Positions 6,131 to 12,913 of a DNA stretch of 64,000 bases are shown here, piece after piece (the stretch's first letter is position 1; the number at the start of each line of letters is the position of its first letter). Source of the stretch: Oleiharenicola lentus (GTDB taxonomy: Bacteria; Verrucomicrobiota; Verrucomicrobiia; Opitutales; Opitutaceae); contig NZ_SDHX01000001.1 in NCBI RefSeq assembly GCF_004118375.1, forward strand, positions 2,173,693-2,237,692, written 5' to 3'. The notes beneath the pieces are model-generated. The model saw nothing but the letters and a program-made list of their open reading frames with translations. It made no database searches and had not been told where the DNA came from. The position numbers and the translations under genes are program-made.

Positions 6131-7318
6131 TCAGAGCATCGGCAGGTGCGGCTCGACCTCGGCGTCGTAGTCGATGCCGGGCAGGCCGAAGCCGAACATC
6201 TTCAGGAACTCCGTGCGGTAGCCGGCGATATCGGTGAGAGCGGCCAGGTTCTCGGTCGTGCATTGCGGCCAGATCTTCGAGACCTCGGCCTGCACGTCGT
6301 CGCGCATTTCCCAGTCGTCCACGCGCACGCGGCCCTCGCTGTCGAACTTGGGCTGGTTGCCGTTGTAGAGCTGCGTGGCGAAGAGGCGCTGCATCTGCTC
6401 GATGGTGGCCTCGTGAATGCCTTTGGCCTTCATCACCTTGTAGAGGATGGAAATGTAGAGCGGCACGACCGGGATGGCCGAGCTGGCCTGGGTGACGAGC
6501 GCCTTGTTCACCGAAATGAAGGCGCGACCGCCGACCGTGGCCTTGAGCTTGGCGTCGATGGCCTTGGCGGCGCGTTCGAGATCGATCTTGGCGCGGCCGA
6601 TGGTGCCATCCTTGTAGATCGGCCAGGTGTGCACCGGTCCGATGTAGGAGTAGGCGACGGCGGTGGCGCCGGGGGCGAGCAGCTTGGCGTCGCCCAGGGC
6701 CTGCATCCACATTTCCCAGTCTTCGCCGCCCATGACGGCGATGGTGTCGGCGATGCCGGCTTCGTCGGCTGGCTGGATGGTGACCTCGCTCACGATGCCC
6801 TTGTCGGTGTCCACCGTCTTGTTGGTGTACGGCGCGCCTATGGGCTGGAGGGTGGATTTGTGCACGGCACCGGTGCGGGGATGCTGGCGGCGGGGCGAGG
6901 CGAGGGAATAGACGACGAGGTCAACCTGCCCGAGGTCCTTGGTGATGTTCTCGAGGGCCTGCTTCTTGATGTCGTCGGAGAAGGCGTCGCCGTTGATGTT
7001 CTTGGCGTAGAGGCCGGCGGCGTGGGCGGCCTTGGTGAAGGCGATGGTGTTATACCAGCCGGGGGTGGCGGGGCGACCTTCCTCGGACGGGCGCTCAAAG
7101 AAGATGCCGAGCGTGGCGGCGCCGGAGCCGAAGGCGGCGGTGATGCGCGAGCCGAGGCCGAAGCCCGTGGAGGAACCGATCACGAGAACCTTCTTGGGGC
7201 CGGACTGGATCGGGCCCTTCGACTTCACGTAATCAATCTGCTGCTGGATGTGGGCGGAGCAACCCGTGGGGTGGGCGGTCACGCAGACGAAGCCGCGGAC
7301 CTTCGGTTTGATGATCAT
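6131..7318 (-). CDS. fabV: trans-2-enoyl-ACP/CoA reductase FabV
   Basis: FabV carries out the last reduction of each fatty-acid elongation cycle, using NADH to saturate trans-2-enoyl-ACP. It replaces FabI in some bacteria and is known for triclosan tolerance. The 395-residue product has the family length. Visible motifs are MIIKPKVRGFVCVTAHPTGC at the N-terminus, the cofactor loop VIGSSTGFGLGSR, VYSLASPRR, and the FabV-specific Y-x8-K active site in IYKDGTIGRAK (near residue 235-245). No other fatty-acid synthesis gene is adjacent; it lies downstream of an ECF sigma/anti-sigma pair. Confidence 0.96.
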   Translation of the reverse strand: MIIKPKVRGFVCVTAHPTGCSAHIQQQIDYVKSKGPIQSGPKKVLVIGSSTGFGLGSRITAAFGSGAATLGIFFERPSEEGRPATPGWYNTIAFTKAAHAAGLYAKNINGDAFSDDIKKQALENITKDLGQVDLVVYSLASPRRQHPRTGAVHKSTLQPIGAPYTNKTVDTDKGIVSEVTIQPADEAGIADTIAVMGGEDWEMWMQALGDAKLLAPGATAVAYSYIGPVHTWPIYKDGTIGRAKIDLERAAKAIDAKLKATVGGRAFISVNKALVTQASSAIPVVPLYISILYKVMKAKGIHEATIEQMQRLFATQLYNGNQPKFDSEGRVRVDDWEMRDDVQAEVSKIWPQCTTENLAALTDIAGYRTEFLKMFGFGLPGIDYDAEVEPHLPML

Positions 7319-7413: not shown

Positions 7414-8256
7414 TCAGATCTCGGGCAGTTTGCCGAGCAGGACGATAGGACCTTCGGCTTTCGGCACGCCGCCCTTCTTCTCCAGGCTGATGGCAAAGGC
7501 CGTGGCCCGGGTGACGGGCTGGTCCGGACGGAAAGCCAGGGATACGCTGCCGTCACGGGCGACATGGAATACGCCGCCGTTGACGGGATTCTGATAAGCC
7601 GGGTCGATCACCCAGATCTGGTAATCCTGTTCGTCCGCGATGGCGGGCAGCTTTTCGAAGGTGAGCAGACCAGCCTGCTGCTCGGGGTCCCACACGGCGA
7701 TGGCACGGGCCTCGGCGGTGTTGCCGGCGAGCGAGGCGAGCGCGGAAACCTTGAGCCGCGCGAGATTCTCGGAGCGTTGGAGGCGCTGGCCGAGTTCGGT
7801 GATCATCTGCTCTGCCACCAGTGAGCGCTCGGCCAGCTGGTTGCGCGCGCTTTCGTAGGCAATCTGGTCAAGCCGCTGCTGGGCGCGGAGTGAATCGTTT
7901 TGCGAGCGGAACGAGAATGCCTGGGTGGCAAACCAGGTGGTGCTCAGGGCAAAGGCCGCGGCCGCGGCCCACGGAACATAACGCCAGAGGGGAAACTCCA
8001 CGGTTGCGGCGGGGGCGGGGCGGTCTGTTTCGGAACTCGGGGTGCAGGCGGCCAGAACACTGGCCTTGAGTCCGGCCGGGACCGGAATGGACGGGGCGGC
8101 GAGCGCAAGCGCGGCGGTCGGTTCGGCGAGCGAAGCAACCAGACCTTGGAACTCCTGACTGCCGGAAAGCTCGGACTCAAACGCGCTCCGATCGTTGCCG
8201 TCGAGGAGACCGAGGGCGTGCAGGGCAGCCAATTCTTCGTGGCGTTCCGTGATCAT
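7414..8256 (-). CDS. RskA-type membrane anti-sigma factor
   Basis: A 280-residue product that starts four bases inside the sigma-factor stop (ATGA, 8253-8256). The N-terminal cytoplasmic part (about residues 1-90, ERHEELAALHALGLLDGNDRSAFE) resembles anti-sigma domains that hold the sigma factor. A membrane helix lies near residues 91-108 (VPWAAAAAFALSTTWFA). The periplasmic part is a coiled coil followed by the anti-sigma-K domain, with YQIWVIDP and the terminal LLGKLPEI. The partner is the adjacent ECF sigma factor. The signal that releases it, probably by regulated proteolysis, is unknown. Confidence 0.9.
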   Translation of the reverse strand: MITERHEELAALHALGLLDGNDRSAFESELSGSQEFQGLVASLAEPTAALALAAPSIPVPAGLKASVLAACTPSSETDRPAPAATVEFPLWRYVPWAAAAAFALSTTWFATQAFSFRSQNDSLRAQQRLDQIAYESARNQLAERSLVAEQMITELGQRLQRSENLARLKVSALASLAGNTAEARAIAVWDPEQQAGLLTFEKLPAIADEQDYQIWVIDPAYQNPVNGGVFHVARDGSVSLAFRPDQPVTRATAFAISLEKKGGVPKAEGPIVLLGKLPEI

Positions 8257-8846
8257 AACCGGGCGGGAAGACGGTCCTTGAGCTTGAGCAGGCCGCGACG
8301 GATGCGCGCCTTGATCGTGCCGAGCGGCTCCTTCAGCCGTTGGGCGATCTCCTGCTGGGTGAGCCCCCCGAAGAAGGCCAGTTCGATGGCTTCCTGCTGG
8401 TCGGGAGCGAGCTCGGCGAGGGCGGCGCGCACGGCGGCGCTTTTTTCGCGCAGCCAGAGCGATCCGGCGGAATCAGCCTCGCCGGCCGGGGCGGGCTGCA
8501 GGTCCGGGGCGGCCGTGGAAAGAATCTCGGACCGGCGTTGCCGCATGCGAATGCGGTCAATCGCGCGGTTGCGGGTGAGGGTGACAGCCCAGGAGAAAAC
8601 ACTGCCCCGGCCCGCGTCGTAGCTGGCCGCCGTGCGCCAGAGCTGGATGAAAATGTCCTGCGTGAGGTCCTGCGCCTCGGTCGCATCGCCCAGCATCCGG
8701 ATCGCCAGGGAATAAAGCGGGCCGCTCAGCTGGTCGTAAAGCGCCGCCATGGCCTGTTTGTCGCCCTTGGCCATGGCCGCAACCAGTCGCGCCTGCTCCT
8801 GCTGGCGGTCGTCGCCGTTGGGGGGAGTGGGGTCTCCCTGACTCAT
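8253..8846 (-). CDS. RNA polymerase ECF sigma factor (SigK/RskA-paired type)
   Basis: A 197-residue sigma-70 family protein with only regions 2 and 4. Region 2 holds DLTQDIFIQLW and WAVTLTRNRAIDRIR (the -10 recognition helix). Region 4 holds LAPDQQEAIELAFFGGLTQQEIAQRL and GTIKARIRRGLLKLK (helix-turn-helix for the -35). ATG 8846 was chosen because the upstream frame has no sigma-like sequence. The gene overlaps its anti-sigma factor by 4 bp. The exosortase locus upstream on the same strand is a possible target, which is inference. Confidence 0.94.
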   Translation of the reverse strand: MSQGDPTPPNGDDRQQEQARLVAAMAKGDKQAMAALYDQLSGPLYSLAIRMLGDATEAQDLTQDIFIQLWRTAASYDAGRGSVFSWAVTLTRNRAIDRIRMRQRRSEILSTAAPDLQPAPAGEADSAGSLWLREKSAAVRAALAELAPDQQEAIELAFFGGLTQQEIAQRLKEPLGTIKARIRRGLLKLKDRLPARL

Positions 8847-9000
8847 GCGACCGGCGTGCCCCCATTCACGTCCGGACGGACGGAGACCGCTGACAGGGTG
8901 TGCGGAAACTGTGGCCAGGAGCATGGCATGGGATACGTGTGATGGGCAGGCACGGATGCAACGGTCGGGAATTCCTCCGGCATGGCAATCCCAATGCCAC

Positions 9001-9093
9001 TTACAACACGGCCAGACCGATCAACCCCAGCACCACCAGCGTCGCGACAACCGCGAGCGTGAAAATTTCCTGCTTGGTCAGGGAGAAGGGCAT
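9001..9093 (-). CDS. 30-residue single-span membrane peptide coupled to exosortase
   Basis: The start codon lies 2 bp after the exosortase/EpsI stop (9096) and the frame ends at a TAA (9001). The product is MPFSLTKQE, then a hydrophobic helix of about 20 residues (residues 10-30) with no charged residue. Third codon positions are almost all G or C, like the neighbouring genes, which favours real coding. I do not recognise the family. Position suggests a subunit or assembly factor of the exosortase, or a remnant; both are inference. A hydrophobic frame of this length can also arise by chance. Confidence 0.5.
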   Translation of the reverse strand: MPFSLTKQEIFTLAVVATLVVLGLIGLAVL

Positions 9094-9095
9094 GG

Positions 9096-10709
9096 TCAGA
9101 GGCCGGCTTTGGCCAGGCCGCGCAGGATATCCTGCATGAGAGGTTCAGCGGCAAGTTCGTTCCAGGGGCGGTTGCTGGAGAGCCGCACGAAATACTGGCT
9201 GCCCTGCCGGCGGAAGCCGTAGCGCCAGGCGATTTGCAGCAGGGCGGGGATGGAGTAGGGGTCGCGGTAGTCGATCACCCGCCCGTCAAACACATGCCAG
9301 AACCACACATGCTGGGCGAGCCCGCGGTCAGTGCGGAAGACCCGGTGCTCAGCCGGAGCGAGAGCGCCACCTGCGGCGGAAAGGGTCTGGCGACGATCCT
9401 CGTTGCTGGTCTGGCTGGTCCAACCGGCACCGGGCCAGCAGGCGTCGGGCGTGTGCGAGGCCACCCGGCTCACGGAGGTCTGGCCGGGCGGCCAGTAGGC
9501 GATGTAAACGGTGACTTGCGCAGGGTGCCCGCTGATCGACGGGTGCAGGTAAGTGCGCTCCATCAGGTGGGTGGTCTCGAGAATGCCGGTGAACTGGTAG
9601 AGATCGTCGGAGTCCCGCGCCAACCATCCGGGCGCGGCCGCCGGCAGGAACTCGCCCAGCCGGGGCGGATCGGTTTCCGTCACGGAGTGTTCGCGTGAAT
9701 GCGCGAAGAAGAACAATCCCAAGCCGGCGGTCAGCGCCGTTCCGGTCCAGAAAATCGCCAACAGCGGCCGCGGGATCAGTCCGGAAATGACTTCCGGAGA
9801 TGCGGGCCGGTCGCGCTCCTTGGATTCCAGCAAAACGGCAAGTCCGGCCAGCGCGGCGGCCGTGAGCCCAAGAATGGCGAAACCCGTGGCGTCGTGCCAG
9901 GTGCCGGCGATGTCCACGCCATCGTTGGCCAGCAGGGTCAAGGCGAGCGAACGCAGGAGGTTCATGCCGAGCGCCAGCACCGGGGCCGCCGCGATCAGCA
10001 CCAGGCGGCGGAGCGGGCGACGCACCTGCCAGGCGGCAAAAAAGAATCCCGCATACACGCACGAGATCAGGCTGCGCACACCGCTGCACGCCTCCTCGAC
10101 GCCGACCGTGGTGCGGGCCAGCTCGATCACGTTGCCGTGCTGCCGCGCGGGCACGCCGATAAGGTGCAGCACGTTCATGACATTGTCCGTCACCCAGGTT
10201 TGGAGACCGAGGGTGAGCCTGGCATAGGTGCCGTCGGGAATCGGCGCGACCAGCACCCATAGCAGCACGGCGGTCACACTGATCCAGTTCAGGGGCACCA
10301 GCCGGAGATTCTCGTGGGCCAGCACCAGCAGGCCTCCGCCCAGCAGGCAGACCAGCGAGGCCGAAAGCAGGAAAAGCACGACGGCATGCGACCAGGCCAG
10401 GGTGGCGGCAAAGAGTCCCGCCAGGGCGAAGCCCAGGAGCGCGGCGCCGAGCAGCGCGCCGAGCAAGGGTGCGGTCCAGGCGCGATCCGGCATCCAGCGC
10501 CAAGGACCCTGCTGACGGCTTTCCCGGATCAGCAGCAGGAAAATCAGCGGGGCGAAGAACCCGTGGGAGAGATCGGGATTCCGCCGCCATTCCGGCCAGA
10601 GGAACAGGCAGACGAGGATCGTGCCCAGCAGCAGAACCGCGAGCACGCCGGTCGTGCGGGGCGAAGGGCGGACGGCCGTGGGCGCCGGACTGGAAACGGC
10701 GTCGGTCAT
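9096..10709 (-). CDS. exosortase fused to an EpsI domain
   Basis: A 537-residue polytopic membrane protein. The N-terminal two thirds is an exosortase: several helices, then the catalytic set Cys208 (EEACSGVRS), Arg253 (NLLRSLAL) and His272 (GTWHDATGF). The family cleaves C-terminal PEP-CTERM signals of exported proteins. The C-terminal third, after another helix near residue 315, is an EpsI/DUF3485 domain (VTVYIAYWPPGQ, HTPDACWPGAGW). It overlaps the TPR gene by 4 bp. No protein with a PEP-CTERM tail was seen in the window, so substrates must be encoded elsewhere. Confidence 0.92.
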   Translation of the reverse strand: MTDAVSSPAPTAVRPSPRTTGVLAVLLLGTILVCLFLWPEWRRNPDLSHGFFAPLIFLLLIRESRQQGPWRWMPDRAWTAPLLGALLGAALLGFALAGLFAATLAWSHAVVLFLLSASLVCLLGGGLLVLAHENLRLVPLNWISVTAVLLWVLVAPIPDGTYARLTLGLQTWVTDNVMNVLHLIGVPARQHGNVIELARTTVGVEEACSGVRSLISCVYAGFFFAAWQVRRPLRRLVLIAAAPVLALGMNLLRSLALTLLANDGVDIAGTWHDATGFAILGLTAAALAGLAVLLESKERDRPASPEVISGLIPRPLLAIFWTGTALTAGLGLFFFAHSREHSVTETDPPRLGEFLPAAAPGWLARDSDDLYQFTGILETTHLMERTYLHPSISGHPAQVTVYIAYWPPGQTSVSRVASHTPDACWPGAGWTSQTSNEDRRQTLSAAGGALAPAEHRVFRTDRGLAQHVWFWHVFDGRVIDYRDPYSIPALLQIAWRYGFRRQGSQYFVRLSSNRPWNELAAEPLMQDILRGLAKAGL

Positions 10710-12193
10710 TTCGTGGCGGGCATGTCGGCGCGTTCGAGCATGACGTAGAGAATTTCCAACGGCACGGGGACCAGGGTCAGCAGCTGCCCCACTTGCGGCA
10801 GGCTGTTGGGTTGGTGCAGGAGTCCGCCGACGGCGCGCAGGGCTTTGGCGTCGGATCCGGTGAACCGGCTGACTTGCTCCGCCAGGCGCTCGGCCCGGTT
10901 GCTATCGCGGCCGGCTACGGCGGCCAGATAGACCGCATGGTAAAGCGGCAAACTTTCGTTGGTCAGAGCCGGTCCGTCCCGTAGAAAACGGTCAACAAAA
11001 CGGGCGAGCCCCGCGGGTTCGGGATGGCGGATGAAGCTGGCGGAGAGCTGCGCGACCAGCCGCGGGGTGATGGGGTAGCTCAGAAGGGTGTCGTATTCCG
11101 CCGCAATCAGGGAGGTCCAGCGCTTGGTGTGGAGGATTTGCAGGCGCAGGATTGAAGCCTCGTCGGCGGGCAGCAGGTTGCCCTGGGCATTGATCAGCTC
11201 GAGCGCCTGTTCGGGGCGTTCGAGCTGCAGCAGGCGTTCCACCTGATAAAGCGGAACATACGGGCTGCCCGGGCGGCGGCTGAACCGCGTCAGCCGCGCG
11301 ATCGCCTGGTCTTCGCGGCCCTGCAAAAAAAGAATCTCGGTCTGCACGATCTCGAGGCACCAGTCGGGCAGGCTGGTGTGTTCCTGGATGAGATTCGCGA
11401 GTGCGGCTTCATCCTGGGTTTGGCGCACGGCAAAGAGCAGGCAGTGGAGCCAGGCCTCCCGCCGGCCGGCGTCCTCGGTGAGCATGGCGGCGGCCAGCGG
11501 CTTGATCTGGGCGTATTGGCCGCGGGCGAGCAGGGTGCGCACCCAGATCTGCGCGGTGGCCGGGCGTTGCTCGGGCACGTCGCGCATCAGGCGCTCGTAG
11601 ATGTGTTCGGCCACGTAGGGCTGGCCGGCCATTTGCGAAAGACCGGCCAGGGTCAGGCCGGCGGCGTAATTGCGCGGGTTCAATTCACAGACGCGCTGCA
11701 AGGCGAGCAGCGCCTCGGGGTAGCGACCCGCGGCGATGGCCTGCTGCGCCTGCGTCGCGTAGAGCTTCTCCTGGGAGGCGCGCAACTCCGGCCAGGCCGG
11801 CGGCCAGGCAACACTCACGTAACTGACTTCGTAACTGGCGCTCCGCAGGAAGGCGAACACGACCACCGTGCCCGCCGCATAGAGGACGGCTCCGGCCGCC
11901 GCACCGTAAAGGGCGGCCCGCCCCCAGAAGGGGCGCACGCGCTCGGCATCCACGCCGCAACGCCAGCCGTCCTTGGTCTGGGTCAGCAGCGGACATGCCC
12001 GCCGAAACCGTTCCGGTCGGCGCCAGTGCGTGATCGCGCTGCAACGGGAGTCGAGGGCGTGGCCGGAGTCGCTGTAGTGCTGGCAGGGGCACGAGTCGCG
12101 ATGCGCTCCGCGCAGACGGAACCACGTTTTTCGGACGTTCCAGTAAAGGAGCGCCCACCAGAACAGGAAAAAATCTGTCAGCCAGCCAGCCAC
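10706..12193 (-). CDS. membrane TPR protein with Cys-rich N-terminus, exosortase-linked
   Basis: About 495 residues if it starts at GTG 12193; the open frame continues upstream but overlaps the divergent thioredoxin-like gene, so that part is not believed. The start remains uncertain. Order of parts: a hydrophobic stretch (WLTDFFLFWWALLYW), a Cys-rich segment with CPC and three more cysteines that may bind metal, a second membrane helix (GAAAGAVLYAAGTVVVFAF), then TPR-like helical repeats such as GRYPEALLALQRVCELNPRNYAAGL. The stop overlaps the exosortase start by 4 bp. A scaffold role for the export machinery is inference. Confidence 0.75.
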   Translation of the reverse strand: MAGWLTDFFLFWWALLYWNVRKTWFRLRGAHRDSCPCQHYSDSGHALDSRCSAITHWRRPERFRRACPLLTQTKDGWRCGVDAERVRPFWGRAALYGAAAGAVLYAAGTVVVFAFLRSASYEVSYVSVAWPPAWPELRASQEKLYATQAQQAIAAGRYPEALLALQRVCELNPRNYAAGLTLAGLSQMAGQPYVAEHIYERLMRDVPEQRPATAQIWVRTLLARGQYAQIKPLAAAMLTEDAGRREAWLHCLLFAVRQTQDEAALANLIQEHTSLPDWCLEIVQTEILFLQGREDQAIARLTRFSRRPGSPYVPLYQVERLLQLERPEQALELINAQGNLLPADEASILRLQILHTKRWTSLIAAEYDTLLSYPITPRLVAQLSASFIRHPEPAGLARFVDRFLRDGPALTNESLPLYHAVYLAAVAGRDSNRAERLAEQVSRFTGSDAKALRAVGGLLHQPNSLPQVGQLLTLVPVPLEILYVMLERADMPATK

Positions 12194-12295
12194 GGCGGTA
12201 CCGTAGGGTTGCGGGTGGTCGCCGCAACGCGCAATTGAGGGGCGGACTTTGACGGAAAGGGATTTCTGGCTAGGATTCCGGCTCCATTCCACGCC

Positions 12296-12913
12296 ATGAA
12301 ATCGTTCACCCACACCCTCCTGGCCGGAGCCGCGCTGACGGTTCTGGCCCTCGCTGCCCAGGCGGCGCCCGCAGTCGGCCAACCCGCGCCGGACTTCTCC
12401 CTCACGGACATCCACGGCAAGACGCACAGCCTGTCTGCCTACAAGGGCAAGGTTGTCGTGCTCGAGTGGGTGAATCCCGAGTGTCCCATCGTGATGAAAC
12501 ATTACGAAAAGAGCGGCAACATGCCCGCGACCCAAAAGGCCGCGCAGGCCGAGGGGGCCGTGTGGTTGTCCATCAACTCCGGCCACCCGGGCGCCCAAGG
12601 GGACTACGACGCCACCAAGGTCGGCACCTGGAGCCAGAAGAACGGCGCGGCCTTCAGTGCCTATCTCCGCGATCAGGATGGCAAGGTGGGCAAACTCTAC
12701 GACGCCCGCCACACGCCGACGCTCTTCATCGTCGATGCCGAGGGGAAGCTCGTCTATGCCGGCGGCATCGACAGCATCAGCTCGGGCAACGCCGCCGACA
12801 TTTCACGCGCGACGAACTACGTGAAGGCCGCTTTCGAGGACATCAAGGCCGGCCGCCCGGTCGGCAAGTCCGTGACCAAGGCCTACGGCTGTAACGTGAA
12901 ATACGCCAACTGA
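12296..12913 (+). CDS. exported thioredoxin-like (AhpC/TSA, redoxin) protein
   Basis: A 205-residue product with a signal peptide (cleavage near AQAAPA, residue 24). The mature part is a peroxiredoxin/TlpA-like thioredoxin fold: GQPAPDFSLTDIHGKTHSLSAYKGKVVVL, then a single cysteine, Cys63 in NPECPIV, in place of a CxxC. The cis-Pro loop is TPTLFIVD. A second cysteine, Cys199 in AYGCNVKY near the C-terminus, could form the resolving disulfide. The role is probably thiol redox or peroxide handling in the periplasm. It is transcribed away from the TPR/exosortase operon and is followed by a strong terminator. Confidence 0.88.
   Translation: MKSFTHTLLAGAALTVLALAAQAAPAVGQPAPDFSLTDIHGKTHSLSAYKGKVVVLEWVNPECPIVMKHYEKSGNMPATQKAAQAEGAVWLSINSGHPGAQGDYDATKVGTWSQKNGAAFSAYLRDQDGKVGKLYDARHTPTLFIVDAEGKLVYAGGIDSISSGNAADISRATNYVKAAFEDIKAGRPVGKSVTKAYGCNVKYAN

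Follow-up and report, generated by a model that had tools for sequence, protein, structure and literature searches.

KdpF is a small single-helix subunit of a membrane enzyme. CydX and AcrZ each act together with a larger membrane protein, as described in the accessible parts of the respective reports (PMC4325964 and PMC7267776). A second described system, the PEP-CTERM/EpsH system, is resembled by the locus analyzed here as far as the accessible part of its report goes (PMC1569441): a window of 64,000 nucleotides of Oleiharenicola lentus DNA, the whole stretch that was analyzed, carries an EpsH-type exosortase with an EpsI-like tail beside a gene for a TPR-repeat protein, and the genome of the window likewise encodes PEP-CTERM proteins. 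Directly behind this exosortase gene lies an ORF of 30 codons. With moderate confidence, and drawing on sequence comparison and on analogy with known small proteins, we propose that this ORF is translated into a single-pass microprotein of the inner membrane (about 28–33 residues in its family) that would tune or stabilize a larger partner encoded away from the exosortase.

The translation of window positions 9001–9093 on the minus strand is MPFSLTKQEIFTLAVVATLVVLGLIGLAVL, followed by a stop codon. In the list of ORFs no start lies between the preceding stop and the ATG (9093–9091), which, as an earlier note on this DNA had stated, stands 2 bp past the exosortase stop; because two bases separate TGA and ATG, the peptide is read in a different frame from the exosortase. 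No ribosome-binding-like sequence was evident by eye at the exosortase/peptide junction (9094–9098), which is consistent with re-initiation. The G/C-rich third codon positions pointed out in the same note were confirmed by counting by hand (26 of 30). Among the 173 ORFs of 24–40 amino acids within the window, the peptide is the sole one with a 17-residue stretch at a mean Kyte-Doolittle value of 2.5 or higher. The features of the locus are listed in Table 1.

Table 1. Features of the peptide locus, in window coordinates.
Feature	Position	Strand	Basis
fabV, enoyl-ACP reductase	6131..7318	-	NF043048, 629.5 bits, over cut-off
Gene for an ECF sigma factor, downstream of the peptide	8253..8924	-	TIGR02937, 1.4e-28
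30-residue single-pass membrane microprotein (unnamed family)	9001..9093	-	Translation, relatives, dN/dS, AlphaFold2
E9 codon, fourth capping-box residue	9067..9069	-	E in 59/59 and 39/39
T6 codon, predicted helix N-cap	9076..9078	-	T in 59/59 and 39/39; model helix from residue 7
Junction: exosortase TGA (9098-9096) and 2-nt gap to the peptide ATG	9094..9098	-	Sequence; spacing in relatives
Exosortase with fused EpsI-like C-terminal domain, 537 aa	9096..10709	-	PF09721, 2.5e-40; DUF3485, 2.5e-11
TPR-repeat protein gene, 4-nt overlap with the exosortase start	10706..12712	-	ORF list; TPR_19, 7.4e-08

For the comparison with relatives, a total of 80 loci from named public genomes were taken via the exosortase alone, and 79 of these contain the gene end, one of them extending just 173 nt past it. 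A matching peptide ORF was located within 600 nt of the exosortase in 68 of the 79 loci, a count that required the T..E motif and hence is no proof of the motif itself. The 30-residue hydrophobic frame claimed in the earlier note thus recurs in frame, length and position: 61 of the 68 adjacent ORFs encode 30 residues, five encode 29, one 31 and one 32, and the start codon is ATG in 64 and GTG in four. The start lies no more than 30 nt after the exosortase stop, or overlaps it, in 58 of the 68 copies, and a -4 overlap was found in seven. Since the spacing is short or negative, re-initiation is suggested, and in Opitutaceae the peptide is probably made by translational coupling or re-initiation after the exosortase stop.

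The pooled dN/dS of the peptide was 0.27 for 23 non-overlapping close pairs, with 237.7 synonymous differences on 598.8 sites and 194.3 non-synonymous differences on 1402.2 sites. The ratio of synonymous to non-synonymous differences was 5:0 and 7:0 in the two closest pairs, two single pairs approached 1 (pN/pS 0.83 and 0.96), and the window peptide and its nearest relative gave a pN/pS of 0.24. Loss of the frame in relatives and a ratio near 1 in close genomes had been named in advance as signs against a gene; the frame is kept at the loci counted above, and the pooled ratio stays well below 1. A tblastn search with the peptide at the permissive limit of E <= 1 gave matches in 58 of 95 relatives, among them chance matches such as that in genome G082 (locus L113). 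Judging from these comparisons, the peptide ORF is a real gene under purifying selection and not a product of chance, a conserved and short coding sequence for a single helix, and we infer that it is translated. The suspicion that a membrane peptide gene, easily missed, stands beside the exosortase is supported, and in Opitutaceae the two genes are closely linked. A chance ORF that is untranslated or neutral, or a leader peptide with an irrelevant product, might be suspected from the very short length and from a scan of window positions 8700–9400 that gave no promoter- or terminator-like site, but is scarcely credible in the face of the synonymous excess, the invariant T6 and E9 (see below) and the conservation of the peptide in other gene contexts.

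The signature of the microprotein family consists of T-x-x-E, L13, a small residue at position 23 and G26. In 59 sequences gathered by tblastn match or by position, including four (tagged x) that come from longer frames or are without a clear ATG, both T6 and E9 were present in all 59. Within the set of 39 sequences representing the order, T6 and E9 were found in 39 each, L13 and G26 in 37 each, and G, A, C or S at position 23 in 38. The exceptions, all beyond these two sets, are S for T6 in L267, D for E9 in L188, and N for E9 in L263 and L264. Of the K-Q-E tail, for which the earlier note had proposed a check of conservation, only the last residue held: E9 is invariant together with T6, whereas among the 59 sequences only 24 have K at position 7 and 20 have Q at position 8. 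The arrangement T/S-x-x-E/D is the classic helix capping box. AlphaFold2 predicted one helix of residues 7–29 (mean pLDDT 93.5, pTM 0.48), and because isolated helices are readily predicted, the model adds just the point at which the helix starts. A conserved helix face was not significant, as 6,908 and 10,229 of 20,000 permutations reached the observed moment. A hydrophilic tail of approximately 16–30 residues follows the helix in L090, L093, L105, L198 and L204.

A profile made from 37 peptide sequences matched 131 of 273 genomes of the order at E <= 0.05, and 96 of these, counted by hand, were below 1e-4 and are referred to as the confident set. The remaining 142 genomes gave no profile match, for which absence and divergence are both possible. 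A wider profile matched 111 of 246 genomes of the order, with one match each (111/111). Outside the order only weak matches were obtained, and at the 23 loci examined there (15 + 8) nearly all matches fall in small ORFs that also carry the LT..E..L signature.

The earlier note regarded the peptide as a possible subunit of the exosortase. Such a dedicated accessory subunit would dock with its helix to the multi-pass enzyme and aid the recognition or release of PEP-CTERM substrates, and a number of observations agree with it. In addition to the position of the peptide directly behind the gene in the 68 loci, 58 of them closely spaced or overlapping, 10 PEP-CTERM matches exceed the Pfam cut-off in the genome of the window (G000). 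A fused exosortase orthologue at E <= 1e-60 was found in 44 of 61 family genomes (G000–G060), and all 44 have the peptide, 41 in adjacent position (<= 400 nt), these two counts coming from a set of 63 loci, 44 of them with this exosortase, that includes the window and was partly chosen for a peptide match. When the confident set was compared with any PF09721 exosortase in the 273 genomes of the order, 88 had both, eight the peptide only, 114 the exosortase only and 63 neither; the association is positive, with the peptide in 88 of 202 genomes with exosortase and in eight of 71 without, and small genomes tend to lack both. With respect to the enzyme itself, the nearest named (exception-type) exosortase models score below their curated cut-offs for the window exosortase. 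Three PF09721 exosortases are present in G000, that is, several sorting enzymes in one genome.

Against a subunit of the exosortase stands the retention of the peptide in 11 of the 17 family genomes without the fused exosortase. Among the six family genomes with neither, G008 is 80% and G031 67% complete. In L077 (genome G014) dapF, the peptide gene and the sigma gene follow one another without an intervening exosortase, and the peptide has exactly the sequence found in L076 (G006), in which the exosortase is present. The eight of the 96 confident genomes without a PF09721 match are G038, G067, G091, G129, G160, G161, G218 and G289, among which G091 is a single contig of 97% completeness, the corresponding values being 67% for G161 and 80% for G218. 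The converse was also observed: 114 of the 202 exosortase-bearing genomes gave no confident peptide match, and among the 11 genomes in which no peptide adjoins the exosortase, six carry it elsewhere, apart from the exosortase, and in five none was detected. In three family genomes the exosortase is located elsewhere, and the peptide still follows the TPR gene, the usual predecessor of the exosortase, in L084 and L111 but not in L097. Furthermore, an exosortase lies within 7 kb of the peptide in 46 of 64 family loci versus none of 39 other loci of the order. The peptide is accordingly found also without exosortase, and its presence in every genome with exosortase holds for the family set (44/44) and not for the 79 loci. 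These observations altogether indicate that either gene can occur without the other and that in Opitutaceae the two are linked at the level of the locus. The close linkage claimed in the earlier note therefore stands for this family, a general role as exosortase subunit does not, and a subunit role specific to Opitutaceae is weakened but may hold; we consider a dedicated exosortase subunit unlikely.

The surroundings of the peptide were compared by seeking eight genes, named from Pfam and NCBIfam, within 7 kb of the peptide in a total of 118 loci, 64 from the family, 39 from the rest of the order and 15 from outside the order; contig ends lower these neighbour counts. In the 64 family loci, FabV was found in 53, exosortase in 46, Dtd in 41, redoxin in 33, sigma in 32, TPR in 31, DapF in 27 and DsbD in eight. 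FabV is the steadiest neighbour in the family and was present in 14 of the 18 family loci that have no exosortase nearby. Among the 39 other loci of the order, exosortase, FabV, sigma, TPR and DsbD were each absent within 7 kb, and there remained Dtd in three (three of six in family f8), redoxin in two (two of three in f4) and DapF in two (the single locus of f9 and one of nine in f21). None of the eight genes was found within 7 kb in the 15 loci outside the order. One constant neighbour throughout the order was rejected, none of the eight genes being constant in the 118 loci, and FabV, DsbD, redoxin, Dtd and DapF were likewise rejected as leads to a partner, none being constant enough. Since no neighbour is constant, the partner is not nameable from the gene neighbourhood. 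Neighbours at single loci, among the loci listed, were FtsZ (L192), a polyprenyl synthetase (L203), DUF1501 (L174) and a DUF4136-like protein below the cut-off (L206).

Within the window, the overlap of the TPR and exosortase genes (10706–10709) means that the TPR gene, the exosortase and the peptide may form one coupled transcript; the true start of the TPR gene probably lies downstream of the listed GTG. Immediately downstream of the peptide (7414–8924), the ECF sigma factor gene, the true start of which is perhaps near 8846, is followed by an RskA-type anti-sigma gene. The sigma gene stays near the peptide in the exosortase-free loci L077, L084, L099, L110 and L111. In eight exosortase-free family loci (L092, L104, L105, L112, L090, L093, L208 and L210) a DsbD gene is divergent just upstream of the peptide, as confirmed for L112 (PF02683), and in some loci a redoxin gene lies behind DsbD.

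Longer look-alikes of the peptide were found behind leuS. Polysaccharide-export-like genes stand right behind leuS in three of four Opitutaceae regions that extend from leuS to the peptide (L418, L420 and L422, not L419), and those of L418 were confirmed as Poly_export and Wzz. A single-helix protein of 43–72 residues with LT..E was observed directly behind leuS in L301, L307, L308, L311, L312, L158, L162, L163, L164 and L169, overlapping the leuS stop by 4 nt in the last five. Among the 23 long forms found by profile outside the order, 12 lie behind leuS as named by TIGR00396. A short hydrophobic ORF was located within 400 nt behind leuS in eight of 30 leuS loci of the class, five with the motif (L301, L307, L308, L311 and L312) and three without (L319, L321 and L322), and in none of 27 usable leuS loci from relatives within the order. 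L301 and L307 had already been found by profile, and L308, L311 and L312, found by position alone, obtained 13.8, 10.3 and 15.4 bits from the profile of the short form. For 327 small hydrophobic ORFs lacking the motif that were scored as well, the highest value was 7.6 bits.

In 11 of the 16 family genomes with both genes on one contig, the peptide shares the strand of leuS and lies 11–27 kb downstream of it, a distance biased towards short values by fragmented assemblies. In the genome of the window itself the two are 437 kb apart, and in G123, which belongs to another family, the peptide lies 20 kb upstream of leuS. The position downstream of leuS in these 11 genomes favours kinship, and the peptide is possibly related to the small protein of 43–80 residues that certain genomes of other orders encode behind leuS; this kinship is limited to a short motif and a partial linkage, as only five of the 30 leuS loci of the class show an ORF with the motif. 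A further reading starts from this kinship: the ancestral microprotein of a leuS transcript would have been a subunit of a core inner-membrane machine, exosortase and exopolysaccharide genes would have intervened in Opitutaceae, and the exosortase would have adopted the peptide as a coupled second partner. Because the leuS-linked form is confined to five of 30 loci, we hold this ancestry to be decidedly unlikely.

The N-terminus of GspM carries an S/T-x-x-E-like motif ahead of one membrane helix, and the peptide shares with it a short N-terminus with such a motif before a single helix. The peptide might accordingly be a relic, or the split-off N-terminal membrane anchor, of a larger GspM- or ComEA-like protein, as would agree with the hydrophilic tail of the five family or order members noted above and with the long form L157, which resembles the N-terminus of the T2SS protein M, although it scored 17.6 bits against PF04612, below the cut-off of 27.8. 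The peptide of the window (P0001), in contrast, gave no PF04612 match and contains no further domain, the motif [LIVMFT]T..E[KRQ] was absent from the frames of eight scanned HHH loci (of 30 fetched), and the exact length of 30 residues in 61 of 68 copies together with purifying selection does not fit decay. Such an origin appears very unlikely.

Type I toxins of the TisB, Ibs and Ldr class are very short and hydrophobic, and the peptide is similar to them in size and hydrophobicity. As a toxin or stress peptide, it would insert as a free hydrophobic helix and lower the membrane potential. The single match per genome, the long-term conservation at the pooled dN/dS given above, and the outcome of Rfam, which covers known RNA families and gave nothing over a family cut-off at window positions 8200–10000, differ from what this class would lead one to expect and make a toxin most improbable.

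The peptide P0001 matched none of the Pfam or NCBIfam families up to E 5, where the CydX, KdpF and AcrZ families are expected. There was no PADLOC match up to E 1, and the best match in PHROGs was only E 0.24. PsbJ, the sole match of a PDB profile search at E 0.27 or worse, was not taken as kinship. In the titles and abstract openings of the open-licence papers that our searches listed, no report of the peptide was found.

Comparison of these loci indicates that the peptide is found in many families of the order while its gene neighbours change. Since the peptide persists where its neighbours differ between families, its partner is probably an inner-membrane complex whose genes lie elsewhere, and not the exosortase. 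For the favoured reading, a microprotein that serves such a partner, we envisage the following. The short N-terminus with K or R would stay in the cytoplasm, an inward orientation being suggested by K or R around positions 7 and 10–11; T6 would cap the helix, with E9 completing the capping box; and the hydrophobic part would cross the membrane, where the helix may pack via the small residues 23 and 26 against the larger membrane partner. The peptide would then stabilize or tune this partner as CydX, KdpF and AcrZ do. In Opitutaceae, the gene behind the exosortase would be expressed by translational coupling. The step from a conserved helix to a subunit of another complex is one that we infer by analogy.

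A gene of 30 codons is thus kept across many families of the order despite changing neighbours, and is unnamed in the profile libraries searched. Adjacency to an enzyme gene can mislead, and only the genomes free of the enzyme reveal that the two are separable. If the partner of the peptide were identified, a membrane complex in a phylum that has been little studied would gain a conserved component.

In comparison with the PEP-CTERM/EpsH system, for which the accessible part of the report (PMC1569441) describes no component of the size of the peptide, the peptide differs in occurring also without exosortase. The likeness to CydX, AcrZ and KdpF is one of form: the peptide is likewise one hydrophobic helix, very short and missed by gene finding. 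It differs from these in giving no profile match to the named families, and by analogy with them it may associate with a larger protein.
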